A DNA stretch of 25,614 nucleotides from a virus. Every line of letters starts with the position of its first letter. Within the stretch, counting starts at the first letter, position 1. Both the position numbers and the translations under genes were made by a program. Of this stretch, positions 1 to 25,335 are shown one piece after another. A model generated the notes under the pieces. It did not search any database. It had not been told where the DNA came from and was given only the letters and a program-made list of their open reading frames with translations. The DNA lies in the IMG/VR virus record IMGVR_UViG_3300006077_000031, positions 1-25,614 of that record; one strand, given 5' to 3'.

Positions 1-213
1 AGGTATATGAGGCATATAAAAGTTTAAATCATCCTGTAATTTTCTTCTATTATGTTCAAGTGCTATAACCTGATTGATAACAGTTCTTGGGACTGGAATA
101 TTATCCAATCTTTCTAATTCTCTTTCTAATATATTCACTTTAGATCTAAGTTCAACTATAACTTTATTCAACTCAACTATTAATACATTTTCTGCTTTTG
201 TGTATTCACTCAC
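1..213 (-). CDS. Partial coiled-coil protein, GTG start, runs off the left edge
   Basis: An open frame of 71 codons begins with GTG directly after the TAA stop of the preceding fibre-like gene (TAAGTG) and continues to the edge of the window, so the C-terminus is missing. No ATG is available near the start. A GGTGG ribosome binding site lies about 10 bases upstream, inside the end of the preceding gene. The visible N-terminal part is strongly helical and charged (for example VNILERELERLDNIPVPR), with leucine/isoleucine/valine spacing that suggests a coiled coil. It is the last visible gene of the leftward baseplate/fibre operon. I do not recognise the family; a small structural or fibre-associated protein is a guess from position only. 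Confidence 0.6.
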   Translation of the reverse strand, partial: MSEYTKAENVLIVELNKVIVELRSKVNILERELERLDNIPVPRTVINQVIALEHNRRKLQDDLNFYMPHIP

Positions 214-615
214 TTAATATGTTCCACCATTCAAATCACCAAAACTAGGAGTACCATTTGCAGCAATCTGCATAAGTTCTCCATCTGTGCCAGTTACAAA
301 ATCTACAACACCACCAGTCTTAGCAAACAACACAGCATTATTTGTATGAGTTGTTAGTGTCATAGTACCATCAATTATAACATTGGTGTGTGTTAGAGTT
401 CCACCACCATATACAACACTTTCAAGGTTGGCAATTTTATCCATTGCTAATTTACCACCAATATATTCTACACTTGTTGCTACACTTGAATTAGAAGTTT
501 GACCAATATATAATTTATCAGACGAAAATGAATATGCTAACTCACCATTAGCAAGAGAAACTGGAGTAGCAGTCGATTGACTGCGTTTTATTGCTATTAT
601 AGTATTAGCAGGCAT
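214..615 (-). CDS. Putative tail-fibre or virion surface protein (133 aa)
   Basis: The protein has a short N-terminal segment and then the stretch LANGELAYSFSSDKLYIG. This resembles the 'GELAYN...KLYIG' entry motif common at the N-termini of phage tail-fibre and adhesin-like proteins. The rest is rich in Thr, Gly and Asn and looks beta-structured. It ends in NGGTY, almost the same C-terminus as its upstream neighbour (NGGTF). Its start codon overlaps the neighbour's stop by one base (TAATG), and a GGTGG binding site sits about 10 bases upstream within that neighbour. No enzymatic motif is visible. A virion-surface role is inferred from composition, the motif and position after the baseplate genes. 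Confidence 0.6.
   Translation of the reverse strand: MPANTIIAIKRSQSTATPVSLANGELAYSFSSDKLYIGQTSNSSVATSVEYIGGKLAMDKIANLESVVYGGGTLTHTNVIIDGTMTLTTHTNNAVLFAKTGGVVDFVTGTDGELMQIAANGTPSFGDLNGGTY
221..233 (-). repeat. 13-base direct repeat, copy 1, at the end of the 133-aa gene
   Basis: The minus strand reads TGAATGGTGGAAC, encoding the NGGT part of the C-terminal NGGTY. The GGTGG within it lies about 10 bases before the GTG start of the next gene and can act as its Shine-Dalgarno. An identical copy is at 622-634. Confidence 0.7.
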
Positions 616-878
616 TAGAAAGTTCCACCATTCACTTTATAGTTATCAGCATCAGCATCCCAAGTTAGAATCTTCTTCAACTCGTATCTACTAGACGATT
701 TTCTATAAACAAGAACTGCACCATCTTCTTTATCTGCTTCTAATGTTAAAGTATCCTCAAACTGCGAAAGATTCGTTGGAGTAGAAGTTCTACTTACATT
801 GACGTTTGAGACCGCAGGTTTCTTCTTTAATGTAAAATCTGGGGTAGTTTGTGTTAGTGTAACCTTAAAATTTGCCAT
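615..878 (-). CDS. Small structural protein of the fibre cluster (87 aa)
   Basis: This is an 87-aa protein beginning MANFKVTLTQTTPDFTLKK. It shows alternating beta-like segments (TLTLEADKEDGAVLVYRK) and ends with NYKVNGGTF. It overlaps its neighbours by one base on each side (TAATG), so it is probably translated by coupling. The last codons contain GGTGGAAC, which doubles as the ribosome binding site of the next gene. I cannot assign a family. The context, between other Thr/Asn-rich small proteins downstream of the baseplate wedge genes, suggests a minor virion protein or fibre adaptor. Confidence 0.6.
   Translation of the reverse strand: MANFKVTLTQTTPDFTLKKKPAVSNVNVSRTSTPTNLSQFEDTLTLEADKEDGAVLVYRKSSSRYELKKILTWDADADNYKVNGGTF
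622..634 (-). repeat. 13-base direct repeat, copy 2, at the end of the 87-aa gene
   Basis: This is identical to the copy at 221-233 and holds the same position relative to the gene end. It encodes NGGT of the C-terminal NGGTF and places GGTGG about 10 bases before the ATG of the following gene. Confidence 0.7.
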
Positions 879-1213
879 TACCGTGTTACTTCTGGAGTTA
901 ATGTTGCTATTCCTTCAACCAACCTCGACACAGTATTTGCTGCATCTATTAATTCTGCATCATAAACATATCTCCCTGCTTCCATATTAGCAGTTGCAGT
1001 GTTTGATAGTGTAAGTGTAACTTTACCGTCTGTCCTTGGTGAACCAAACGTCAGTGTAAAATCAACCTTTGTTGATGATGAATAATGTTTACGAATTTGA
1101 CCTCTACCAGTGTAACCTGTTAAATCAACAATGTTACCATTAACGTCAGCGACAGTAATAGATGTCGAGAAGTCTGCACCTTGGTCAATAATTATATTTG
1201 CTTTTGCACCCAT
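878..1213 (-). CDS. Small beta-rich virion protein (111 aa)
   Basis: The 111-aa protein starts MGAKANIIIDQGADFSTSI and reads as an all-beta, immunoglobulin-like or receptor-binding-protein N-terminal-like sandwich. Its order is an early VADVNGNIVDLTGYTGRGQIRK segment split by a GYTG turn, a TDGKVTLTLSN strand, and a final YVYDAELIDAANTV strand. Similar compact domains ('...GYTARGQIR...YDIEL...') are familiar to me as N-terminal or accessory modules of phage tail and baseplate proteins, but I cannot name this family with certainty. A spacer of 4 bases separates it from the preceding gene. An AGGATAAAG binding site overlaps that gene's end. Confidence 0.62.
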   Translation of the reverse strand: MGAKANIIIDQGADFSTSITVADVNGNIVDLTGYTGRGQIRKHYSSSTKVDFTLTFGSPRTDGKVTLTLSNTATANMEAGRYVYDAELIDAANTVSRLVEGIATLTPEVTR

Positions 1214-1217
1214 ATCT

Positions 1218-1769
1218 TTATCCTAATGCTATTGCCATAGCTACTGATGAGTCTTCACCAGCACCAGCAGTTTCTTTACCATCTAATAATGTTTGCACAT
1301 TACCAGCAGCGATTGTGATTGAGTTAGCGATTGGATCTGCAGTAAATCCAATTTCATCGGAGTTCTTTTGATACATAATATTATTATTCGAACCACCAGT
1401 CATTCTTATTCTACTAGCACTACCTAAAACGATTCTATCAGTACCAACAGAATTGAAATCTACATTACCAGTAAACGTAGTATTGGCAGAAACAGAAAGT
1501 GACTTGCCATCAATAGTAGTATTAGAACTAATTGAGATTGAAGAACCAACAGTAGTGTTACCACCTTTAATACTTGTTGTTCTTAACTCATTAGCAGAAA
1601 ACGTGCCTTTAATATGACCATTACCTTGGGCAGTACCACCACGATTAGCAGAACCTGCTCGTGATACCGTGACAACATTGTTACTTATGGCAGTTGCCAT
1701 TAAGTTGGTGTTAGTCCTCCAAGTATTAAAAGTATTGTTTAAATTAGTATTTGAAATTGCTACTGTCAT
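1218..1769 (-). CDS. Tail-fibre-like structural protein (183 aa)
   Basis: The first 40 residues (for example NNTFNTWRTNTNLMATAISN) look like a helical attachment segment. They are followed by a repetitive, Ser/Asn/Thr/Gly-rich region (SANTTFTGNVDFNSVG, TTVGSSISISSNTTIDGKS) typical of trimeric beta-helical phage fibre shafts. The C-terminus ends SSVAMAIALG. The start overlaps the preceding small gene by four bases (ATGA), indicating translational coupling. It is short for a full tail fibre, so it may be a short spike, a fibre adaptor or one segment of a multi-protein fibre. No catalytic motif is visible. Confidence 0.6.
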   Translation of the reverse strand: MTVAISNTNLNNTFNTWRTNTNLMATAISNNVVTVSRAGSANRGGTAQGNGHIKGTFSANELRTTSIKGGNTTVGSSISISSNTTIDGKSLSVSANTTFTGNVDFNSVGTDRIVLGSASRIRMTGGSNNNIMYQKNSDEIGFTADPIANSITIAAGNVQTLLDGKETAGAGEDSSVAMAIALG

Positions 1770-1986: not shown

Positions 1987-4900
1987 TTATATCTGTAAAG
2001 CAATTGCTCTCATATCTTTAACCAATGGAACAATATTAGTTCCAGAACTTGTCATAACAATCTTAATCGCGAACGTTTTATATGTATGGTAAATACTACC
2101 ACCAGCAGAACGATAAGCAACAACACCACTATTAGAACTATTGGTATGAGCATGAGAGTTAGCAGTAGTTAAGAAACCTTGACCATTTGTATTGGCACTA
2201 AATCCATATTCAAACTCTTTCAAATCGGTATTATCTACTGAATCAGAATAAGTATTACTTGAAGTTATTTGCGTTAAAGGTGTATAATCTTTATCAGCAA
2301 ATACATCAGAATCTTCTGGATTATGAATTCTAGCATACACTTTAATGTCAGTTCCTTGTGGTTTATAAGATGTTAGGAATACATTTAAATCCTCAGCATC
2401 TTGACCATCTCCCAATTCAATTGGTTTAGTAATATATCTAACAGACGCACCACCAACCTCTTTATGTTCATCAGTACTACTATTATTTATTACATTTCCA
2501 ATGACTATCCCAGTAATTCTTGACTCATCAATCACTGGAGAAACATTAGTATCAGTTGTAGAGAAACTACCTTTCATTACTAATGTCTTCTTAGAACCAT
2601 CAACCGCAGTCAAACTTGTTTCGTTAGTTTTAGAATAAATTTTCTTCTCACCAATTAGGAAGTCATTCTCAACACCAACATCAATATTAGTATATGAAGA
2701 ACCAATCACACCTGAATCAGAAGTAGTCCTAGCAGTCCATGATGTAACTGTATTACCATAACTGATTTGAGGAATCTTAGGAATAGCAGTATTGTATGAA
2801 ACATTATCAACTGATGTTACTCTAGTTGTTGCACCAGAAACCTGACCACGCACATAACCATTTGCAAAAGTACCAGTAGGTGTATCTAAATAAATCTTAC
2901 CATTAGTTGAATCGATAAACTTAACAAAACCACTGTTAGTATTAGCAGTAAACGAATCTACTTTACCTTTACCATCCGTGAAGTTAGTACCAACGACAGT
3001 AACTGAACTATTACCAGTTGCCAAAGTAGAAAACTCGGTTGGGTTGTACGGATCTACTTTAACAATAACTGTACCATTAGCATATTCATTAACAATACTT
3101 CTAACAACACCATTTGCAACAGTTCCAGTTGTATTAGCAATTATAGTACCAACAGTTACATATGCACCTGCAGCATTACCAGTAATACCTTGTAACCTTA
3201 ATACTGATTCAGCAACAACTTTCTCGCCATGATTAAATGTTCCATAGAAATTATCAGATGACATATATTCAATATCATCATTTTCCACATATATTGTACC
3301 AGTACTTGAAGAGAAAACTGCTTTGTGTAAATTGTATTTAATATCTTCAGATTGAACTGGAGACCAAGTCTTATTATCAGCAGAAGTAAACATAATTCCA
3401 GAAGCAGGTTGCTTATCAATTAATACATCAGTGTCTACATCCTTACCACCTAATTTACCAACCCATAATGCATAATCATCAGTGTTTCCGCCTGGCATTA
3501 TAGTAAACGCATAATCAGTATTATTCTTCAAGAATACTGGAGAATCAAACGTAAACGTAGTCGAAGTATTAGCAGATGTATTATTAGCACTAATTGCTGA
3601 TGGTTGTAAAGTCTTAGAACCATAAGGAACAATCGTTGTAGTAGGGAAACCATTTTCAACTTCTCTAATTTGAACTGTTAATGGATATGTACTAGACTTC
3701 TTACCAAAGTATAAATCTAATTTAGTAATAAATGCACCATCAGACTCACCAGAAACAACACTAAATGTTTGTGATAATGGGTCGTTATTTGGTGGACTTC
3801 TTCTCCAAGTAGTTATATTTTGAGAAGATACAGAAGTTAGTGTTCTATTGTCAGTTACATTATTCTCAGATAATTGAGGAACAACCATATTGATATTAGT
3901 ACCACGTTGGGATACATCTAAACCAATACTTGTAAAATCACCATGACCTGAAGTAGATAATAAATTTGCTTGAGTAGTAGTATTTGAAATATCTTTTAAC
4001 TCAAAACGTCTAGTACCAACACGGAATTTTAATGTACTATCATTAGGAATACGGAACATACCATAAACATTACCAGAAGCATCAGTTGTTAAAGCAGAAC
4101 CCTCCGTAGCAGTATTAGCAAATGAAGAGTTAGCAGGTGTACAATATGCAGTTACTGCTTCATCATCAAAATATGGATAAACACGTGTACTAGGTTTTAA
4201 TCTAGTTCCAGTAAATTGAATCATTCTTGAACGAATAAAATCACGAACAGCAACATTAGTTACATAGTCACCAGTAGAGAAAGATTCTGTTGATGGACTC
4301 ATTGTTGTTTGAATACCATTTCTAATTTGATTAGTTTGGGTTGTAGTAGTTTGAGTAGTACCACCACTCCAAGTTCCACCCCAAGTTCCAGTGTTCTGTG
4401 ATGATGAAGATGAAGAAGTAGTATTCCAGTTACCCCAGTCTGTTCCAGTTATCCCAGTTCTAGCAGCAATATCACGTATCGCATCGTACATTCCACTGAA
4501 GTCCATTTGGATATCAGGCAATTGAGTTGTATCATTAGTATTATCACCAGCAGGGTTAAGTAATACTTCACCTCTCCAATTAAATGATAATTCTTGTGCT
4601 GGATTTCTTAACTTACTACCATATGGTTGACCATGCAATTCAGTATCAGTATATGAAAGTGTAATTAAATCACCAGTCTTAACTATATTTGAAGATGTTA
4701 ATGTGAGGTCTTTAGTGAAACTGACATCCGTTCTATTAAACGAAGGTCTTAATTCTGACTTGTCTCTATCAATCGCAGCACGATAACCAACCTTGCTTGT
4801 ATCAGCAATATTATGACCGTCAAAATTATCAACTAAGAAACCATTCTTAAATCTATCTAAACCAGTACTATTAAATATTTGTTTATTTTTAGCAGAAGAT

Positions 4901-7900
4901 TCTAAAGCATTAAGTGATGAGTAGTATTCTAAATTCTTAACACGTTGTTCAACAGCACGTAGATCTTTCATAGTATATCTACGATTGTTTACTAAATCCA
5001 TTGTTACCTGATAATCAATTCTATTATATTGTGAAGCAACATATGATGATAGAGATGGGAATACTGGAACATTCAATACAGATAATGTCATTGAACCTGC
5101 TAATTCATCAGGAGTTCTCGGAGTAAGAGCAGGAACACCTTTAGTTACCTCTACTTTACCCTCTTTAGTCAATACAACACGATCTTTTCTAGGCAAATAA
5201 AATTGAATATCTGCTTGGAAGTTCTCGTCAGGAGTAGGCATATAAGAACCAGTTGAATCAACGTTAAATGCAGTTAATACAGCAGGGTTAGTTGGTGCCA
5301 AAGCAACAGTACCAGTAGCAGATGGTGTTACTGAATTTGTTTTATAAGGTCTAAAGTCAACTGAATCTCTTAAGTCATATACCTTACCAGTTGTAGGTGA
5401 AGTAAATAATGGAATTTCTTGAGTAGTAATAGCAGATGTATTTGCTGCTGTTAAATCGTCAATAGGATATGAATCTACTGATAAGAAACCAATACCTGAA
5501 GAAGTGTTTCTAGAAAAGTAATTGAACTTAACCATTAAACCAGAACTAGACAAGTCAAGTGAACTTGTTGCCTTTTGTTTAAGGAATGACGTATCATAGA
5601 ATGAGTCTTTCTGTCCATCGTCTAATTCGAAATGAGAAGAAACATCAGTATCTGAAGTTATCACACCAGTATTAGAACCTTTATAAACGGAAACTAATTT
5701 ATATGCATCAGATACACCTAATGCCCATGGACCTTTATTTGTCGCAGTATTAGTATTTGTATTAATGTGAATAAACTTATCTTTTGATACTGTTTTGTTA
5801 GTTTGTACCGCAGTACTTCTTAATCTATTAAAGTAAACAGAAGCAGTAAATGTAGAATCAAGGTTTGCTTGACCTAAATTGACTTGATGTTGAGATGAAG
5901 TTGATGTGATAGTACCATTTGATGTTAAGTCAAATACATAACCACTCGGGAAAGTAGTTTTATGAGCAAGACCGACACCACTTCTAGTGTAAGCAAATGT
6001 ATTAGCAACTTTCAATGTTGTATCATTTGAAATACTTGTAACTATTTCTGTTACCGTATTCGAACCATCAACAATAGTAATAAAGTCGCCAACTTGATAT
6101 TGAGAAGTAAACGTAGTAGCAGAACCAGTTACGGTGTTACCAGTAAACGTAGATACTTGTCCAGTATGTGGGTCTGTATTAACAGCACTCTTAGAAACAA
6201 TTAGGATATTTCTTTCATCAGTATTTGATAGAGGTGAACCTGTGTCATTATTAACTTCTGTACCACCAGCATGAGCAGTGTTTGCAGTAATAGTTGCAGT
6301 ACCATCAGTCGCAAAACTTACTGTCTTTTCTGTTCTATAAACAAATTGAGTATCAACATTATTAGATGAGTCTTTAAGTGTCCTAGTACCCTTTTGAGTG
6401 AAAGGGAATACCAAAGTGTTTAGACTTGCTTCTTGTAATTTAGCAGAACCATTTGTTTCAAGAACAATATCACACATTGAATTTAATGAACCACCATTGT
6501 TCTCATAAATACCTCTTACATCAGAGAATGATTTAGTAGAATCCATTTTGACGTCAAATAAGTAAATTCTAAATTGACCGTCTACAGTTCCTGGAGTACC
6601 AGAATGATATTGGAAACCACGAACACGAGCAGTACCGATAGAAGAACCACTTGCACCTTGAGAACCTAAATTCTTACCAGAGATACCTTTTTGAACAGCA
6701 CTGTAAAGAGAAACTTGTCTTAATCCTTGGAAGTCCCAAGTACCTACAACATTCTTAGCAATTACATAGTTACCAACAGCTTGACCGATAACACGACTAT
6801 CTTTAGTATCCCAATCAGTTGCTTTGTCTACATTTCTAAATACAGAAGATTCTACAGAAATTCTATTACCACCAACATAACCAATACCTTTTTCTACTTC
6901 ACATACAAGTTTATTTCCATCACCACCATCAGCAGAAGCATAACGACCAAGGTTATTTGTATTCTTTAAATGTTCTCTAATTCTTAAATTAAATGGTTCG
7001 ATAGCAAAGTTACCACTTGTTTCATATGCTCTATCACTGATATAACTACCTATATCTGAATATGTTGTATCAGTAAATCTTTGAGAAATTTGACCGTTTT
7101 CAATCTCAGCAATACTAAAGAATGTAGTTGTATTCGCAGCAGTTAAACTTCTTACAGCAAGTGTTGGTTCCAATTTTAATCTGTCTGCACCTGGAGCAGC
7201 AAAGTTAGTAGAACCAGTAGAATTATCTGTTAAAGAAGTATCTAAATTAGAATTGATAACAGTTTCTGTTGTTCCAAAACCAAGTTTCTTGTTAGGTGTT
7301 TCGTTATACTTATCAACAATAATACCTTGTGGACTAACTTTAACAAAGTTTCCTTTATGGTAAACAATACCATCAGATACAGTTGCTCTGAATCCAAGTC
7401 CAGTAGAACTTGTTGTTATTGTATTTGCAGCGACAACGAAAGTGTTATTACCTGAATGCCTTAATATAATTGTTTCGCCATCAGTAAATGTTTTCGTTGT
7501 GTTATTAGCACCTGAGTTTGTGTAATTAACAAATAAACTAAAGTAGTTTGGTGAGTTTGACTCAGATCCATCTTTAGCATCTACTAATTTAGCAGTCATA
7601 CCAGATGATGTACCAGTGGCGACTAGGTTAGCAATCTTACCTGAAGTTGTTATGTCACTTAATAGTAATACACGGTTATTTGCATCCTTATCTCTTAATT
7701 TGACATATTCAATTGTGTTAGTTGAAACACCAACACCAGTAATAACTGTTCCGTCTACAACAACCTCATTAGCAAATCGTTCTATTTGATTTTGTAGAAT
7801 TGATTGTATTTGGGTTAATTCTCTAGCTTGTACTGCATATCCTGGACGAAAAAGAACTCTATGAAAATTCTTTGATTCATCAAAGTCATCGTAATAAGGG

Positions 7901-7929
7901 GATTGGTTTAAATTAGTTTCGATTGCCAT
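1987..7929 (-). CDS. Giant DUF4815-type baseplate/tail-fibre structural protein (1980 aa)
   Basis: The N-terminus (NQSPYYDDFDESKNFHRVLF, then RPGYAVQARELTQIQSILQ) is characteristic of the DUF4815 family of large virion proteins in marine T4-like phages. The first roughly 1,150 residues appear to be one long mixed domain. Residues about 1163-1200 form a low-complexity Ser/Thr/Gly/Gln/Trp linker. A beta-sandwich module follows at about 1385-1500, starting near SQTFSVVSGESDGAFITKLD and including VQIREVENGFPTTTIVP. The C-terminal 400 residues hold Gly/Asn/Thr-rich beta repeats. It sits directly after gp8, where T4 encodes gp9-gp12, so a peripheral baseplate, fibre or host-recognition role is likely. 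It is far larger than any of those T4 proteins. An AGGT binding site precedes the start. Confidence 0.8.
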   Translation of the reverse strand: MAIETNLNQSPYYDDFDESKNFHRVLFRPGYAVQARELTQIQSILQNQIERFANEVVVDGTVITGVGVSTNTIEYVKLRDKDANNRVLLLSDITTSGKIANLVATGTSSGMTAKLVDAKDGSESNSPNYFSLFVNYTNSGANNTTKTFTDGETIILRHSGNNTFVVAANTITTSSTGLGFRATVSDGIVYHKGNFVKVSPQGIIVDKYNETPNKKLGFGTTETVINSNLDTSLTDNSTGSTNFAAPGADRLKLEPTLAVRSLTAANTTTFFSIAEIENGQISQRFTDTTYSDIGSYISDRAYETSGNFAIEPFNLRIREHLKNTNNLGRYASADGGDGNKLVCEVEKGIGYVGGNRISVESSVFRNVDKATDWDTKDSRVIGQAVGNYVIAKNVVGTWDFQGLRQVSLYSAVQKGISGKNLGSQGASGSSIGTARVRGFQYHSGTPGTVDGQFRIYLFDVKMDSTKSFSDVRGIYENNGGSLNSMCDIVLETNGSAKLQEASLNTLVFPFTQKGTRTLKDSSNNVDTQFVYRTEKTVSFATDGTATITANTAHAGGTEVNNDTGSPLSNTDERNILIVSKSAVNTDPHTGQVSTFTGNTVTGSATTFTSQYQVGDFITIVDGSNTVTEIVTSISNDTTLKVANTFAYTRSGVGLAHKTTFPSGYVFDLTSNGTITSTSSQHQVNLGQANLDSTFTASVYFNRLRSTAVQTNKTVSKDKFIHINTNTNTATNKGPWALGVSDAYKLVSVYKGSNTGVITSDTDVSSHFELDDGQKDSFYDTSFLKQKATSSLDLSSSGLMVKFNYFSRNTSSGIGFLSVDSYPIDDLTAANTSAITTQEIPLFTSPTTGKVYDLRDSVDFRPYKTNSVTPSATGTVALAPTNPAVLTAFNVDSTGSYMPTPDENFQADIQFYLPRKDRVVLTKEGKVEVTKGVPALTPRTPDELAGSMTLSVLNVPVFPSLSSYVASQYNRIDYQVTMDLVNNRRYTMKDLRAVEQRVKNLEYYSSLNALESSAKNKQIFNSTGLDRFKNGFLVDNFDGHNIADTSKVGYRAAIDRDKSELRPSFNRTDVSFTKDLTLTSSNIVKTGDLITLSYTDTELHGQPYGSKLRNPAQELSFNWRGEVLLNPAGDNTNDTTQLPDIQMDFSGMYDAIRDIAARTGITGTDWGNWNTTSSSSSSQNTGTWGGTWSGGTTQTTTTQTNQIRNGIQTTMSPSTESFSTGDYVTNVAVRDFIRSRMIQFTGTRLKPSTRVYPYFDDEAVTAYCTPANSSFANTATEGSALTTDASGNVYGMFRIPNDSTLKFRVGTRRFELKDISNTTTQANLLSTSGHGDFTSIGLDVSQRGTNINMVVPQLSENNVTDNRTLTSVSSQNITTWRRSPPNNDPLSQTFSVVSGESDGAFITKLDLYFGKKSSTYPLTVQIREVENGFPTTTIVPYGSKTLQPSAISANNTSANTSTTFTFDSPVFLKNNTDYAFTIMPGGNTDDYALWVGKLGGKDVDTDVLIDKQPASGIMFTSADNKTWSPVQSEDIKYNLHKAVFSSSTGTIYVENDDIEYMSSDNFYGTFNHGEKVVAESVLRLQGITGNAAGAYVTVGTIIANTTGTVANGVVRSIVNEYANGTVIVKVDPYNPTEFSTLATGNSSVTVVGTNFTDGKGKVDSFTANTNSGFVKFIDSTNGKIYLDTPTGTFANGYVRGQVSGATTRVTSVDNVSYNTAIPKIPQISYGNTVTSWTARTTSDSGVIGSSYTNIDVGVENDFLIGEKKIYSKTNETSLTAVDGSKKTLVMKGSFSTTDTNVSPVIDESRITGIVIGNVINNSSTDEHKEVGGASVRYITKPIELGDGQDAEDLNVFLTSYKPQGTDIKVYARIHNPEDSDVFADKDYTPLTQITSSNTYSDSVDNTDLKEFEYGFSANTNGQGFLTTANSHAHTNSSNSGVVAYRSAGGSIYHTYKTFAIKIVMTSSGTNIVPLVKDMRAIALQI

Positions 7930-14937: not shown

Positions 14938-17280
14938 TTAAGGCCATCCTAATTTATTTAATAACTTGATAAACTTTGGTTGGAATAATTTCTTCTGGTC
15001 TTCTGGTGAAAACATATCATCTAAACTATTATGATTACTTCTAATTCCTGATGCAGTCCTAACTCTAACCATCGTTTCATTAATTAAATTTAATGATGAA
15101 TAACTGACCATCTCACTAAACGGTTCATACCAAGTTTTGTCACCTTTATATAATGTTTGTAAATTTTTTACATAGTATTCATTTGCTGGTAAATCATTTC
15201 CATCAAACCTTCTAAACTTTTCTGGTATCACAATATAACTTTTATTTCTTCGAGTGAAAATGCTTTCATCACTAAATTCTATTGGAGTATCCGATAGCAA
15301 AGTTGCGAGATCAAAGTCCGCATAATTTTCATATGAGTCGTCACTTACGTCCCATATTGTGTGACTATATTCATGAATTGATGCCCTTAATATCTGCAGA
15401 GATGCATCTTTAGACTTAACTGCACCAAATTCAACCATCATCGTATCAACAGCAACACCCGTACCCGTTGCTTGCTCCTTAGGAACAATCTTACCAGCAG
15501 CACCAACTAAAAAATCCGCCGCCAGCATAGGAACTTGGTTGGCGATAATAGGTAAATAGAAATTTGGATTATCTAGAATATTCGCATCATCTGGTAATTC
15601 ATTAACAGAATTCTCAACAAAGTCATTAAAATCTTTTTCAAATAATTCTCTATTAGGGTATATTTCGGATCCTTTTTTGACTTTTAAATCCGCAGCATCT
15701 GCATATCCAAATGTTTTTAAATAATTATCAAATATCGGGTCTCCTACAACAGCAATATCTTTAAAGTATTTACGGATATGTTCTTTTAACTTTTGCCTTT
15801 TTATTTTAATGAGTTGCTTTTTTTGGTCCTCATTTAAAAGTTCTTCAGGAATTCCTTTACATTCAGTTCTCACAACACCATAACTAAAACCAAATAACGC
15901 ACGCCACCATATTTCCATACCTGCTATTTGCGTTTTTGAAAATAACTTTAATAATCCTGGAACACTTTTCAATACATCTTCAATAGTTACGCATGAACCA
16001 TTCATCATTTGACCAGCAACTCTTGCCAAAAATTCGTCTTCGAATGTATGTAATATTCGTTCAGAGTATCCAATCAAACTATAATCACTCAGGATACTAA
16101 ACCAATAAACACCAGACTTTCCTGCTAATTCTTTTACTTTTTTCAAAGTATCAACATCTAAAGAGTCAACATCATTTTTAGCATTACGTAATGCGTGTAC
16201 TGATTCGTGTATTGCTATTGACGGTGGAGAATTTCCCCACTCAACACCAGAAGTTTTTATTCCCCTGAACTCGCCACTTGACAGAACTGTATATCCCCAT
16301 CTACCATTCTTAAAACTATAAACACTTTCTAATAAATCAGTTGCGTGGTCAGTATCAGATACAAATATTAAGAAATTTTCTGCGGAAGGTTTATACCGTC
16401 CGAGTAATCCACCAGAAGGAGGATGCAAGTTTTTATCAGGTCTTAACGATTCTGAATAATGATTAAATCCCTGCCTAGTGGAAAATAGGTATATTGGGTT
16501 TCCAACTCCTCCGAAGAATAACTTTATTGGTGCAGATAATAATTCTTTAAAATTTGTTCTATGAACTATAAGATTTGAAATAAGACTTTTAATATATCTT
16601 GTTTTCATTTCATCTAATGTACCATTAGTAGTATATAATACATCATCACCAAGTAACAACGGATCCCAAATTGCTATTGGCACAGAACCATCTTTACTTT
16701 CACTTCTAAAATCTGGAACTAATTTTGCTCCGATAGTTAATGAATCTTCTGAAACATATTCTTGAATCAATTTAAAATCAAGACCCCACAAATACTCTGT
16801 CAACGATTCAACTTCTGCTCTAGTTGGTGTAGTAGGAATTTCATAATATGAACAACAAAGTTCATCATATGTTTTATTTTCGAACTTTTCAACTTTATCT
16901 AATATTTTGGTGAATTGTTGTCCAGCATTATTCCCAACTATTCCAACTCCATTAAACCTAATTGTACCCCTTGTTAGATATGCTTCATTTAAGAATACAT
17001 CTGTAGAACCTTTTGTCATTTTTCCAGCATCTGCTGAATCTAAAATTCTTGCTACTTTAATTCCATTAAGATATACATCAGGAGAACCCTTATTAACTTT
17101 TGCTGAATGGGGAACACACACAAGACCCGATTTTATTGTATGTGGTGCTACTGGATCTCCCTTACGAACTACTGGGATTCCGTTAATATATACAGTAGAT
17201 TGTGTTGCTAATGCGGTTGAAGTTGCATCACAACCATGACCAGTTGTTAATGAATCACCGTTTCTACATCCTCCTGGCAT
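14938..17280 (-). CDS. PAAR spike-tip protein with large C-terminal region containing two HExxH zincin motifs (780 aa)
   Basis: Residues 1 to about 100 form a PAAR domain. It starts MPGGCRNGD, continues with GHGCD, then repeated strand/turn units STVYINGIPVVRKGDPV, GSPDVYLNGIKVAR and GSTDVFLNEAY, with Cys/His residues (C5, H15, C17, H47, C55, H58) that could bind the tip metal. PAAR proteins cap gp5/VgrG beta-helical spikes; T4 gp5.4 is only about 97 aa. Here about 680 residues are added. They contain HESVH at 358-362, with acidic candidates E414/E416 further on, and HEYSH at 636-640, with E719/E723 in a YEPFSEMVSY helix. Both fit HExxH zinc metallopeptidases. The gene lies 3 bases after the gp5-like spike gene, which lacks a lysozyme. 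I infer a delivered or tip-mounted protease; substrate unknown. Confidence 0.85.
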   Translation of the reverse strand: MPGGCRNGDSLTTGHGCDATSTALATQSTVYINGIPVVRKGDPVAPHTIKSGLVCVPHSAKVNKGSPDVYLNGIKVARILDSADAGKMTKGSTDVFLNEAYLTRGTIRFNGVGIVGNNAGQQFTKILDKVEKFENKTYDELCCSYYEIPTTPTRAEVESLTEYLWGLDFKLIQEYVSEDSLTIGAKLVPDFRSESKDGSVPIAIWDPLLLGDDVLYTTNGTLDEMKTRYIKSLISNLIVHRTNFKELLSAPIKLFFGGVGNPIYLFSTRQGFNHYSESLRPDKNLHPPSGGLLGRYKPSAENFLIFVSDTDHATDLLESVYSFKNGRWGYTVLSSGEFRGIKTSGVEWGNSPPSIAIHESVHALRNAKNDVDSLDVDTLKKVKELAGKSGVYWFSILSDYSLIGYSERILHTFEDEFLARVAGQMMNGSCVTIEDVLKSVPGLLKLFSKTQIAGMEIWWRALFGFSYGVVRTECKGIPEELLNEDQKKQLIKIKRQKLKEHIRKYFKDIAVVGDPIFDNYLKTFGYADAADLKVKKGSEIYPNRELFEKDFNDFVENSVNELPDDANILDNPNFYLPIIANQVPMLAADFLVGAAGKIVPKEQATGTGVAVDTMMVEFGAVKSKDASLQILRASIHEYSHTIWDVSDDSYENYADFDLATLLSDTPIEFSDESIFTRRNKSYIVIPEKFRRFDGNDLPANEYYVKNLQTLYKGDKTWYEPFSEMVSYSSLNLINETMVRVRTASGIRSNHNSLDDMFSPEDQKKLFQPKFIKLLNKLGWP

Positions 17281-17283
17281 AAT

Positions 17284-18084
17284 TTAGTTCCAGTCTATTC
17301 TTGGTGCGATGAATTTCATATTACCTTTACTAACAATATCGCAAGTACCACCTATGTCTGCTCTGAAATTTCCATCAACAGATATATTTGCATTACCATT
17401 AATAACAACTTTAACATCTCCCGATATATGTACACTGTCTTTACCAGCAACAATTTTATAATTATCTGCAACGATATGTTCTACTTTATCGCCAATTGGA
17501 TGAATTTCATACCCAGTTCCACTTTTGTGTAATTCTCTAATCCTTTCAAAATTCTCAGTATCATCATATTCTTTAACATGACCAGACTCAGTTTCTATTA
17601 CATGATTATATGGATATACTGCTCTAAATGGTTGTTCGGGTTCACCAATAACTTTATCAAGTACATGGACTCTTGTGTTCTCTCCTCTCGCCAATTTGTT
17701 TACATCTGATTCATTAGTATATCTTGGGAATTTTCCAGTCGGATCGTTGAAACCTTCACCAACCTTGGACTTCTCAGAGGGCATACTAGCGATAGTACCC
17801 ATAATGGCAGGTTCTTGAGCACGATCTCCATCTAAGAAGAACCCGAACACCCAACTACCCTCAACAATACCAGTTGGGGATTTACCAACTCCACTTGTAG
17901 AAGCAGAGTCAATACTATTAATAGGAATTGCCCAAGGCAATTCTTTAGTAGGAATCTCACCCTTGTCGTCAGTGTGCCAACCGAATGCTCTTACACGAAC
18001 ACGTCCGAGTTGGATTGGGTCGTTGCGGTCTTCTACGACACCAACGAACCATTTAAATCCATTCCTACCTACAAAGTTTCTCAT
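17284..18084 (-). CDS. gp5: gp5-like baseplate central spike without lysozyme domain (266 aa)
   Basis: The N-terminal ~105 residues are a gp5/VgrG OB-fold: WFVGVVEDRNDPIQLGRVRV, then FGWHTDDKGEIPTKELPWA, then VEGSWVFGFFLDGD and EPAIMGTIAS. A middle stretch with YNHVIETESGHVKEYDDT matches the VgrG/gp5 segment leading into the spike. The C-terminus, residues about 210-262, shows octad beta-helix repeats with glycine near position 7 (VKVVINGN, ANISVDGN, FRADIGGT, CDIVSKGN). This is a trimeric membrane-piercing needle. T4 gp5 is 575 aa with a lysozyme domain between OB-fold and helix; no such domain or catalytic pattern exists here. It overlaps the 62-aa gene by one base, and the PAAR tip gene follows. 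Confidence 0.93.
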   Translation of the reverse strand: MRNFVGRNGFKWFVGVVEDRNDPIQLGRVRVRAFGWHTDDKGEIPTKELPWAIPINSIDSASTSGVGKSPTGIVEGSWVFGFFLDGDRAQEPAIMGTIASMPSEKSKVGEGFNDPTGKFPRYTNESDVNKLARGENTRVHVLDKVIGEPEQPFRAVYPYNHVIETESGHVKEYDDTENFERIRELHKSGTGYEIHPIGDKVEHIVADNYKIVAGKDSVHISGDVKVVINGNANISVDGNFRADIGGTCDIVSKGNMKFIAPRIDWN

Positions 18085-21829: not shown

Positions 21830-22420
21830 ATGGCAACTATATTCGACGATCTATTATTAAAAGGAATTAGGCAAGGATACGCACCAGCAAAAACTGATGC
21901 AGCAAGAAAATGGTTCAGAGAGAAGTCCTCAAAGATCGGCAGAACAAGATTAAAACCTGAAGAGTTACTTAAAGAAGCAAGAAAAAAGAAAGACACAGTT
22001 GAGATTGGTCATATGTACCATTTTATATATGACCCAAAAGGTAAAAAGACTTTACCATATTATGACACGTTTCCTTTAATCTTTATGGTGGGTGAAGCAG
22101 AAGGTGGATTTTATGGGATTAATCTTCACTATTTGCCGCCAAAGTTAAGAGCGAAGTTGATGGATGCATTATATAATTTATCAACCAGTAAACAATATGA
22201 TGACAAAACCAAATTGAAATTGTCATATAGTATTTTGAGTGGGGCAAGTAGATTTAAATGGTTTAAACCAACCTTTAAACATTATCTAGTAAACCATGTA
22301 AGATCTAGATTTATGGAAATAGAAGCACCTGAGTGGGACATAGCACTTATGTTACCTACAAGTAGATTTAAATATGCTACAACTCAGAAAGTTTACGCAG
22401 ATAGTAGGAAAGCAATCTAA
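21830..22420 (+). CDS. Conserved T4-like phage structural protein of unassigned function (196 aa)
   Basis: The protein begins MATIFDDLLLKGIRQGYAP and has a basic helical N-terminal third (TDAARKWFREKSSKIGRTRL). Next comes a compact core with VEIGHMYHFIYDPKGKKTLP, YYDTFPLIFMVG, GGFYGINLHYLPPKLRAKLM, then FKWFKPTFKHYLVNHVRSRF and EWDIALMLPTSRF. I recall this 'YDPK...LPYYDxFPL...GxNxHYLPxxLRxKLMDAL' pattern from many marine T4-like phages, annotated as structural or hypothetical, but I cannot assign a biochemical role. It starts 3 bases after gp4 with no clear binding site, so it is probably translationally coupled, and it overlaps the next tail gene by one base. Head-tail joining or tail-tube assembly is an inference from position only. 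Confidence 0.75.
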   Translation: MATIFDDLLLKGIRQGYAPAKTDAARKWFREKSSKIGRTRLKPEELLKEARKKKDTVEIGHMYHFIYDPKGKKTLPYYDTFPLIFMVGEAEGGFYGINLHYLPPKLRAKLMDALYNLSTSKQYDDKTKLKLSYSILSGASRFKWFKPTFKHYLVNHVRSRFMEIEAPEWDIALMLPTSRFKYATTQKVYADSRKAI

Positions 22421-24558
22421 TGATACACGAGAATATTACAAGTTTTTTTAAAAGCGAAAAAGAAAAGCCAGAATTCAATCAGGGGTTTAACGTACAAAAC
22501 ATAGTATCATCTATTAATAAATCTGGAGTTGCTTCTTCAAGTCATTTCGAAGTACATTTGCCTGATTGGATTAATAGCAATTCTAGGGAATTATTATATC
22601 GTGCTGATAGTGCAAATCTTCCAGGAAGAACAGTAATGACAACGGAACATAAGTTTACGAACTATGGTCCGATTAATAAAGTTCCTTATGGTCAAATATA
22701 TGGTGATGTTACTATAACATTTTTATTGAGTGAGGACTTGAGAGAAAAGGATTATTTTGAGGCTTGGCAAAGCAAAATGATTGATACTGGTTCAAACAAT
22801 TGGAGAACTTTCGGCAGAAGTAAATTTAATGTTGAATATTTTGATAACTATTCTGGAAGTGTTGATATCAGACAATATGGTTCTAATGGTGGGTTGAGGA
22901 CTATTCATACCTTAAGAGAAGCATATCCAATTATGATTGGTGATATTGCAATGGCATGGGGAACTGATGAACCTGCTAAACTATCAGTAACATTTGCATA
23001 TAGAAATTATAAGTTTGTACAAGTTGATAACAGCAATCAGCCTGGTGTTGGAATTAGTGGTTCAATTAATTGGAGTAAAGGTAAATTATCAGGTGCATTA
23101 AATATACCTGGATTTGGTAATATCTTTGGTGATAATAATTTGGGTGTTAATATGAATGCTGCGCCAGGTTTATTTTCATTAGATAATATAGGGAATCTTT
23201 TAGGTGGTGCTGGAGATCTTATTGGTGATGGTTGGGATGCTATAACTGGTGGTGGTGATAAGAGAAAACTTAAAATTGCTCAAGTAAGAGGTGATGGTGG
23301 TGAAGGGAAAAGAATAGCACCTAGTGGTGATGCTGGTGGGATTGACTATAAGAAAAATGCTTATAAGAAAAACTTTATGAAAGCATTACCTAGTTGGAAG
23401 AAACGAAACCTTGATAGGGTAACTGACAGTAATAGAGATTTCTTCCAACCAAATGCTCTTGAAGACAACTTAGCAGTTTGGGATGATGGTCAGTTACCAG
23501 CATCTGGTGATGCTACTGAATATAAGAAATCGAATTATACCAAGAACTTTATGAAAGCAATGCCATCCTGGAAGGAACGAAACCTTGATAGTATTACAGA
23601 AACAAACAGAGATGTTCACCCACCAAACACATTAAGAGATAATATGGCTGTGTGGGGTGAAGATGGTCAGTTGCCAGCATCTGGTGATGCTACTGAATAT
23701 ACTAAAGGCATTACAACTAAAATGATGAATCAAACTTTAGAAACTACTGTTCCTATAAGTACCCGAGTACAAACTGAAGGAGACATGACTAAAAAGAATG
23801 GTCAGTTACCTGCATCTGGTGATGCTATTAAAGGTTATTCAAATAGGGGTCAAAATGTTCCTTGGAATATGGAGAAGTTGAAAAATGAAAGTCAGTGGAA
23901 GCAAAGAAAGGAACAACTGAATGAAAATTGGATGTATGGAAAAGAGCAATGGAAACAAAAAACAAATGACGATAAACAAAAATGGAAAGATGGTAAAAAT
24001 CCTTCATCTGGTAATGCTACCGAATATTCAAATTCAAATGTTATTGGTAGTTTAACGGCAAAAGACCTTTCAAATTGGTTTGCTGAAAATGGAAGACTAC
24101 CAGCGTCTGGTGATGCTAAAGATTACACAGGAACTTTAATGGCAATAAGAACTAGGGGTACAACGTTCGACCCATTTGGTATTGGAAACAACATGGGTGG
24201 TGGAACTGGAGGAAGCAGTGCTCGTTGGGGTGGTTCAGGTGGATTTAATCAGAGTGCTGTTCCTAAGAGTAGTAATACTTGGGCGAGAAATAGACCTGAG
24301 CAAGAAGGTGCGATGAGTCTTGCTCAGAAAGCAGCAGGCAAGTATAAATCTTCAAAACAAATTTCAAAAGATTCACTGAAGATTTACCCAAAACAAGCAT
24401 TTATTAAAAAGACACAAGAAAAAATATATAGTATTGAGTCTGGAAGATTTAGAAGTCCTAATGATAAATGGAGTAATGGTCAAAGACCTGCATCTGGTAA
24501 TGCATTTAAACAATCCAGCAGACCAACAAATAGATTCTTTAGTGGCAAAAAAGATTAA
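22420..24558 (+). CDS. Tail-tube-like protein (gp19/gp54 fold) with long SGDA-repeat C-terminal extension (712 aa)
   Basis: Residues about 30-215 match the tail-tube fold: HFEVHLPDWINSNSRELLYR, ADSANLPGRTVMTTE, NYGPINKVPYGQIYGDVTIT, FLLSEDLREKDYFEAWQSKM, LREAYPIMIGDIAMAWG and LSVTFAYRNYKF. This is the gp19/gp54 pattern (T4 gp19 163 aa, gp54 320 aa). Residues 215-290 are Gly/Asn-rich, and from about 297 there are seven GQLPASGDA-like motifs (near 300, 357, 416, 461, 525, 558, 687) between basic, Trp-containing segments. Two long units of about 60 residues are near copies (KNFMKAxPSWKxRNLD...). The extension is unlikely to pack inside a tube ring, so I favour a tube initiator or terminator, or a specialised minor tube protein. 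An AGGAAAG binding site and TAATG overlap precede it. Confidence 0.8.
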   Translation: MIHENITSFFKSEKEKPEFNQGFNVQNIVSSINKSGVASSSHFEVHLPDWINSNSRELLYRADSANLPGRTVMTTEHKFTNYGPINKVPYGQIYGDVTITFLLSEDLREKDYFEAWQSKMIDTGSNNWRTFGRSKFNVEYFDNYSGSVDIRQYGSNGGLRTIHTLREAYPIMIGDIAMAWGTDEPAKLSVTFAYRNYKFVQVDNSNQPGVGISGSINWSKGKLSGALNIPGFGNIFGDNNLGVNMNAAPGLFSLDNIGNLLGGAGDLIGDGWDAITGGGDKRKLKIAQVRGDGGEGKRIAPSGDAGGIDYKKNAYKKNFMKALPSWKKRNLDRVTDSNRDFFQPNALEDNLAVWDDGQLPASGDATEYKKSNYTKNFMKAMPSWKERNLDSITETNRDVHPPNTLRDNMAVWGEDGQLPASGDATEYTKGITTKMMNQTLETTVPISTRVQTEGDMTKKNGQLPASGDAIKGYSNRGQNVPWNMEKLKNESQWKQRKEQLNENWMYGKEQWKQKTNDDKQKWKDGKNPSSGNATEYSNSNVIGSLTAKDLSNWFAENGRLPASGDAKDYTGTLMAIRTRGTTFDPFGIGNNMGGGTGGSSARWGGSGGFNQSAVPKSSNTWARNRPEQEGAMSLAQKAAGKYKSSKQISKDSLKIYPKQAFIKKTQEKIYSIESGRFRSPNDKWSNGQRPASGNAFKQSSRPTNRFFSGKKD
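23317..24504 (+). repeat. In-gene repeat array encoding seven (G)QLPASGDA-like motifs
   Basis: Seven degenerate copies lie at codons starting near 23317, 23488, 23665, 23800, 23992, 24091 and 24478. The encoded variants are RIAPSGDA, GQLPASGDA (three times), GKNPSSGNA, GRLPASGDA and GQRPASGNA, often followed by TEY or a similar residue pair. The first two intervals form a roughly 177-180-base tandem unit (about 23323-23502 and 23503-23679) with clear DNA similarity. Later intervals are diverged or shortened. Copies are irregularly spaced (60, 59, 45, 64, 33 and 129 residues). Confidence 0.85.
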
Positions 24559-24612: not shown

Positions 24613-25335
24613 ATGAACTTACCAAGTTTAGTAACACCACACTTTAACGCAACAATACCATCAACTGGACAAGAGATAGAATACCGTCCATTTTTAGTAA
24701 AAGAAGAAAAGATTCTTCTTATGGCACTTGAGGGTGGTGATAAAAAAGAAATTACAAAGGCAACAAAGAATATTATCAAGTCTTGTGTTATAGATGAAAT
24801 TAATATTAATCATTTAGCAACTTTTGATATTGAATATTTATTTTTAAAACTTCGAGGAAAATCGGTTGGTGAGGTAATTAAGGTTAAGGTTGGGCATTCT
24901 GATGAAGATAGTGAATGTAAACACAGAACTGAAGTGTCTATCAACCTTGATGATATTAAAGTTACTGCTGACGGTGTTGAAGCAGAAGAAGCTAGTATTG
25001 ATAATAGGATTATGATTACAGATGATATCGGCGTAGTATTAAGATATCCTGGTATTGATGATATTGATAAGATTGATGAGAGTGCACCTAAGTCAATGTT
25101 TGACGTGATTAATAATTGTGTTGAGTATGTGTTTGATAAAGATAACGTATATAATGATTTTACAAAGAAAGAAATTAAAGACTGGGTCGATAGTCTTAGT
25201 CAAAAACAGTTTATGAAAATGTCAGAATTTTTTAACACCATTCCAAAACTTACTCATAATGTTGAGTGGACTTGTTCGGAGTGTGGTAAAAAGGATTCTA
25301 TAATACTTGAGGGATTACAAAGTTTTTTTATGTAG
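24613..25335 (+). CDS. gp26: Baseplate hub assembly protein gp26 (T4_baseplate family)
   Basis: The 240-aa protein has the gp26-type order. It starts LPSLVTPHFNATIPSTGQEI with EYRPFLVKEEKILLMALEGG, then helices (KNIIKSCVIDEININHLATF, DIEYLFLKLRGKSVGEVIKV), a middle beta region, and the C-terminal QFMKMSEFFNTIPKLTHNVE, WTCSECGKKDSIILEGLQSF. The CxxC may be half of a metal site; C-terminal aromatic residues follow. T4 gp26 is 208 aa and acts in hub assembly rather than as a well-defined virion part. The last codons lie on a T_TTT_TTT heptamer directly before ATG TAG, with an open -1 frame beyond. The protein may therefore exist in a short form (240 aa) and a frameshifted form (300 aa). Confidence 0.88.
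   Translation: MNLPSLVTPHFNATIPSTGQEIEYRPFLVKEEKILLMALEGGDKKEITKATKNIIKSCVIDEININHLATFDIEYLFLKLRGKSVGEVIKVKVGHSDEDSECKHRTEVSINLDDIKVTADGVEAEEASIDNRIMITDDIGVVLRYPGIDDIDKIDESAPKSMFDVINNCVEYVFDKDNVYNDFTKKEIKDWVDSLSQKQFMKMSEFFNTIPKLTHNVEWTCSECGKKDSIILEGLQSFFM
25323..25329 (+). other. Candidate programmed -1 ribosomal frameshift site (T_TTT_TTT)
   Basis: Seven consecutive T residues are read in the gp26 frame as T TTT TTT, followed by ATG TAG. This is the canonical X_XXY_YYZ slippery phase. Slipping back one base gives TTT TTT TAT GTA GCA TTA ATG, which is open into the ORF at 25341-25514. The predicted fusion is 239 + 4 + 57 = 300 residues. Confidence 0.65.

Follow-up and report, generated by a model that had tools for sequence, protein, structure and literature searches.

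Genes and features at the locus

The window analysed here is a stretch of 25,614 nucleotides of viral DNA (IMG/VR record IMGVR_UViG_3300006077_000031). As initially annotated, it contains an open reading frame at 22420-24558 on the plus strand, encoding a protein of 712 residues. Genes resembling T4 gp4 and gp2 precede it, and a gp26-like gene follows. The protein combines an N-terminal tail-tube-fold domain with a long C-terminal arm that carries a repeated short motif (Table 1).

Table 1 Features of the putative initiator gene and its flanking genes, in window coordinates
Feature	Coordinates	Strand	Basis
gp2-like DNA end protector, upstream neighbour	21830..22420	+	PHROG 429, E 2e-53
Tail-tube-fold domain, gp54-type initiator (predicted), residues 1-250	22420..23169	+	PHROG 45, PDB profiles, Foldseek, ends of relatives
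Clade-specific C-terminal extension, residues 251-712 (462), mostly disordered	23170..24555	+	pLDDT, Pfam, relatives
Motif 1, degenerate APSGDA, residues 300-305	23317..23334	+	
Repeat unit 1 spacer (YKKNFMKALPSWKKRN...LAVW), paralogous to unit 2	23362..23481	+	
Motif 2, GQLPASGDA, then TEYKK, start G357	23488..23514	+	
Repeat unit 2 spacer (YTKNFMKAMPSWKERN...MAVW)	23536..23655	+	
Motif 3, GQLPASGDA, start G416; DNA differs from motif 2 at 1/36 sites	23665..23691	+	
Motif 4, GQLPASGDA, start G461	23800..23826	+	
Predicted Trp/Lys-rich helix, residues 483-523	23866..23988	+	AlphaFold2 pLDDT ~75, full-length model
Motif 5, GKNPSSGNA, then TEY, start G525	23992..24018	+	
Motif 6, GRLPASGDA, start G558	24091..24117	+	
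Motif 7, GQRPASGNA, start G687	24478..24504	+	
gp26-like T4_baseplate protein, downstream neighbour	24613..25335	+	Pfam PF12322, E 3e-64

Residues 6-233 match PHROG 45 (tail tube) with an E-value of 4e-34, and a profile built from 25 relatives matches the solved structures of T4 gp19 (7e-14) and gp54 (4e-10) in a PDB profile search. The Pfam family Phage_TTP_2 falls just under its cutoff (26.2 versus 27 bits). Foldseek searches with the AlphaFold2 model retrieve T4 tube and baseplate chains with E-values down to 4e-11. The fold, of the T4 gp19/gp54 type, reaches approximately residue 230-250. By both profile and fold match, the protein belongs to the T4-type tail tube superfamily (PHROG 45, gp19-gp54). 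The initial annotation had proposed this fold for the N-terminus, and the assignment holds; gene order narrows it to a gp54-type initiator rather than gp19.

The sister contig L002 additionally contains a gp51-like gene, followed by a protein of 603 residues that weakly matches tape-measure families. The arrangement of gp2, the gene in question and gp26, with gp51 and the tape measure in L002, is the order found around the annotated tail-tube initiators of the pelagiphages HTVC008M and Mosig. We therefore call the gene a gp54-type initiator and not the main tube protein gp19. Judged by its position, it is a predicted tail-tube initiator of a T4-like virus, and by analogy to T4 gp54, which assembles on gp48 as a single hexameric ring and nucleates gp19, six copies would be expected. 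T4 gp19 shares the fold and gives the best PDB profile score and Foldseek matches, but it has 163 residues and builds the whole tube, whereas the gene described here sits in the initiator position.

T4 gp54 and the two pelagiphage initiators likewise adjoin gp26 and gp2 and share the tube fold. They have 320 and 312-313 residues, respectively, and lack a long C-terminal arm, whereas here the arm comprises 462 residues with seven motifs. The PDB profile aligns to residues 124-309 of T4 gp54, while the fold begins near residue 20 in the 712-residue protein; the N-terminal region of T4 gp54, approximately 120 residues before the fold, is missing. A start near the fold is also seen in many relatives that occupy this gene position. 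The value of the pre-fold region as a hallmark of the gp54 family is doubtful, as most environmental genes in this position do without it.

The arm carries seven copies of a short motif

In the extension, the strict pattern P[AS]SG[DN]A occurs six times, always inside a longer G[QRK]xP[AS]SG[DN]A, and APSGDA occurs once. The fuller consensus reads (W..)[DN]G[QRK]LPASG[DN]ATEY. In 20,000 residue shuffles of the extension, more than one motif was never obtained. Both the pattern count and the shuffles agree with the initial description of seven PASGDA-like motifs. The motifs separate modules of 27-123 residues. Units 1 and 2 (59 residues each) had been described as near-identical 60-residue repeats, which is true of their motif DNA and not of the spacers, where 27 of 44 residues match and the DNA is approximately 70% identical. 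The net charge of the extension is +20. The segments between the motifs are basic, as first noted, but unevenly so: most of the charge is concentrated in three stretches, residues 470-527, 567-689 and 696-712.

A motif shared with other proteins of the same phage would hint at a docking or protease site; we found it in none of the other proteins of the 25.6 kb window or of the sister contigs. A repeated short motif ahead of partly basic segments could mark protease sites, with the arm serving as a removable pro-region that is trimmed during assembly. To our knowledge, the motif does not match the consensus of the T4 gp21 prohead protease, which counts against such processing, and we consider it highly improbable.

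The arm is mostly disordered

The full-length AlphaFold2 model contains a confident tube domain and an arm with pLDDT values mostly of 30-45. When the extension is modelled alone with five sequences, the mean pLDDT is 32, and neither model shows structure at the motifs. The helix predicted at residues 483-523 is of low confidence in the model of the isolated extension; the surrounding module is found again in the sister contig L006. Pfam gives no match to the extension at E<=5. Apart from this one helix, the predictions mostly agree with the earlier expectation of disorder.

Additions at the C-terminus of the tube domain are known from lambda gpV, T5 pb6 and SPP1 gp17.1*, where they lie on the outer face of the tube (PMC8718954). 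The arm resembles them in that it, too, adds to a tube domain at the C-terminal end. The known additions are folded Ig-like or FN3 domains present in every ring or many rings of non-contractile tails, whereas the arm consists of disordered repeats and belongs to the initiator ring in a contractile tail. A folded C-terminal beta-sandwich of the Ig-like or FN3 decoration type was not found in the arm, given the lack of Pfam matches and the disorder predicted by AlphaFold2.

The arm is confined to one clade

Five IMG/VR sister contigs, from a T4-like group known only from metagenomes, encode proteins with the arm. The sister proteins have 728, 728, 594, 469 and 589 residues, the last being cut by the contig end. 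Motifs are kept in every member of the clade, the window included. Arm length ranges from approximately 220 to 480 residues, and the number of modules varies about twofold. In L037, L038, L039 and L040, with approximately 50-55% gp26 identity the closest non-clade relatives with a readable C-terminus among the matches listed, the protein ends soon after the tube domain, near residue 250.

More distant relatives were surveyed as a sample of gp26-based matches, with the sister contigs lying outside the 80 loci listed. Among the matches listed, 114 complete tube genes beside distant gp26 genes have a tail after the domain of median 29 and maximum 152 residues, and the motif occurs in 0 of them. 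Annotated phage relatives for which a length was noted have 180-313 residues. In 50,697 annotated phage records, nothing beyond the tube domain is matched, and tblastn of the arm or the motif against annotated phages gave nothing meaningful. Neither Pfam nor PHROGs has a family that matches the arm, and genomes of bacteria and archaea gave no match to the pattern PASG[DN]ATEY. The literature searched did not describe a comparable arm. In the libraries covered (Pfam, PHROGs and annotated phages), the view that no described family carries the motif is upheld. The arm is present in one small clade and absent from all other relatives found; in other T4-like phages, the tail-tube initiator barely extends past the tube fold.

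The proximal arm shows signs of purifying selection

For the proximal arm (residues 251-455), dN/dS is 0.16 between the window and L002, 0.25 with L004 and 0.32 with L006, comparisons that are small, with 6-17 non-synonymous changes, and that draw on few contigs, all closely related. Units 1 and 2, which are paralogous, give dN/dS of 0.15-0.24 at dS of 1.2-2.0. Ortholog and paralog comparisons together point to purifying selection on the spacers of the proximal modules, which argues against neutral drift.

The restriction to one clade, the variable length and the disorder would all suit a low-complexity tail that grew neutrally by slippage and duplication and has only a linker function. We regard this as improbable, as the spacers appear to be under purifying selection and are not simple repeats, and motifs are present in every member. 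The initial annotation had named, as a sign of such drift, close relatives in which the extension is absent or random in sequence, with no conservation of the motifs. Outside the clade the extension is indeed absent altogether; inside it, all five sisters keep the motifs, and the spacers appear to be constrained.

Motif DNA is homogenised and marks points of exchange

Between units 1 and 2 of the window, 1/36 motif sites differ compared to 36/120 spacer sites (P 3e-4; these P values are uncorrected, and nine such comparisons were made). The same contrast is seen in L004 (2/36 versus 37/120, P 0.002), and is non-significant in L002, which has a single copy of each motif allele (P 0.2). For unit 2 compared between the window and L004, the pattern is reversed, with differences at 0/120 spacer and 4/36 motif sites (P 0.002). 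Within the motif core, the fraction of identical codons is 0.77 compared to 0.44 expected from the codon use of the gene (0/2000), while the flanks are as expected. The motif DNA thus appears homogenised between copies, a pattern of concerted evolution.

In L006, precisely the unit that lies between motifs 2 and 3 is missing, and the join falls within the motif tail; a second deletion in L006 begins directly after APSGDA. L004 departs from the window sequence at motif 4 and returns at motif 6. As a result of at least three such module losses or swaps between sister phages with a junction at the motif, we consider the motif to be not only a conserved peptide but also a probable recombination joint. 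Sequence comparison shows distal modules that were apparently gained, lost or replaced, with the exchange points at the motif.

Between the window and L004, the distal arm (residues 456-712) is unalignable or approximately 27% identical, compared to 84-98% identity in the genes nearby. Phages with approximately 95% identity in the tube domain differ by a replaced distal half. Such divergence, bounded by motifs and affecting Trp- and Lys-rich modules, could indicate exposed whiskers: arms that pass between sheath and baseplate to touch the cell surface or other parts of the virion, with distal shuffling diversifying the contacts. In the tail-fibre tip protein gp38, conserved glycine-rich motifs alternate with hypervariable segments (PMC6851490). 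The arm shares this layout with the T-even-type gp38 tips, but there is no sequence relation; gp38 is a different protein at a different location, and a receptor role of the arm is hypothetical. In baseplates of the T4 type, the initiator ring is buried, and the proximal arm is conserved. The composition of the arm is disordered and basic rather than beta-rich as in adhesins, and no adhesin family was matched in Pfam. We therefore see exposed whiskers as an unlikely reading.

The synonymous homogenisation of the motif core raises another alternative, in which the repeat is mainly a DNA element, such as a short hairpin or recombination site, that is translated by chance. A DNA hairpin, GCATC-TGGT-GATGC with additional TCAGT/ACTGA pairs, can form in the two best motif copies (z approximately -2.6 to -2.9). 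In copies 4-6, a change of GAT to AAT and other codon changes leave the hairpin weakened or broken, whereas the peptide persists, and so we do not take the hairpin as the primary function. The repeat units also have low dN/dS, and no occurrence of the DNA motif outside this gene family was found in the viral collection. A primarily DNA-level role is, in our view, quite unlikely. A dispersed DNA repeat was rejected as a candidate, the motif being confined to this gene and the same repeat not found at unrelated sites.

A search of viral contigs with a GxxLPASGDA-type DNA pattern returned, besides the sisters, one family of approximately 82 residues (MITFQQFY...) with GGQFPASGDAGYAPGDAR, in L017, L024, L026 and L028. 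By a rough estimate, chance alone should yield a few such matches in a collection as large as this, which makes this family only a lead. The genes of this small basic family (L026 4097-4345, L017 3722-3976, L024 3398-3646 and L028 12471-12719) encode an N-terminus that resembles capsid-targeting peptides. Their conserved GGQFPASGDAGYAPGDARQLSPYG block resembles the motif, possibly by chance.

Possible role of the arm

Our preferred explanation, to which we assign a rough probability of 0.4, is by analogy an initiator with disordered modular arms whose motifs dock outside the first tube ring. Past the last tube strand, the chain would come to lie on the ring's outer face, like that of other tube proteins. 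Approximately six arms, if T4 gp54 is a guide, would then originate in the space between the first tube ring and the baseplate core and sheath around it. The motifs may serve as short docking peptides, present in several copies, that anchor the arm to a symmetric neighbour, which could be the sheath, the gp25/gp53/gp6 core or the tube wall. Such docking would stabilise the junction or the start of sheath assembly, and the spacers would be flexible, partly helical linkers of variable number. Any docking surface must tolerate both the roughly twofold variation in module number and the replacement of the distal part.

The exit on the outer face is proposed because the C-terminal additions of known tube proteins take this path (PMC8718954). 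The same precedent weakens the case for a lumenal partner of the tape measure or hub, in which the arms would lie inside the tube, pack with gp29, and leave with the DNA or aid its ejection. The gene does adjoin gp26, gp51 and the tape measure, and the distal arm is positively charged; six 460-residue arms would, however, crowd the lumen. A function as tail-length ruler is made unlikely by the lengths in L006, where the tape measure has 23 extra residues at a shared landmark and the arm is approximately 260 residues shorter. Together this makes a location inside the tube decidedly unlikely.

Within the docking model, it is conceivable, though we rate it as unlikely, that the peptide motif has two roles, one as the docking unit and one, by way of its homogenised DNA, as the joint for module swaps and deletions. 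This would result in an evolvable arm that gives an inner-tail protein variability like that of tail fibres. With the evidence for the motif as a joint, a connection of peptide repeats to recombination becomes open to testing. An arm that is selected and disordered, with modules that shuffle between near-identical phages, would show that contractile tails can accommodate variable material at their inner junction, which makes a case for asking what fills the space around the first tube ring.

Other genes in the window and sister contigs

Two further observations concern tape measures and their surroundings. In L022, the sister tape measure (3-1466, minus strand) contains an internal duplication, with STVATFAAMAGGKLLFWARAL present twice, that is absent in L002. 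In L002, a 91-residue protein (6613-6888, minus strand) that adjoins the tape measure and a gp32-like gene is by sequence a putative GroES-type co-chaperonin.

The window also encodes a gp5-like hub (17284-18084, minus strand) with an OB domain and weak matches to the gp5 C-terminal part, and no match to a lysozyme domain. Next to it lies a 780-residue PAAR-tip protein (14938-17280, minus strand; PAAR Pfam E 5e-8) with no Pfam match beyond PAAR. Its C-terminal part of approximately 680 residues contains two HExxH motifs (HESVH and HEYSH), which suggests a metallopeptidase-like domain on the tail spike. A protein of 1980 residues encoded at 1987-7929 on the minus strand matches DUF4815 with an E-value of 3e-43.
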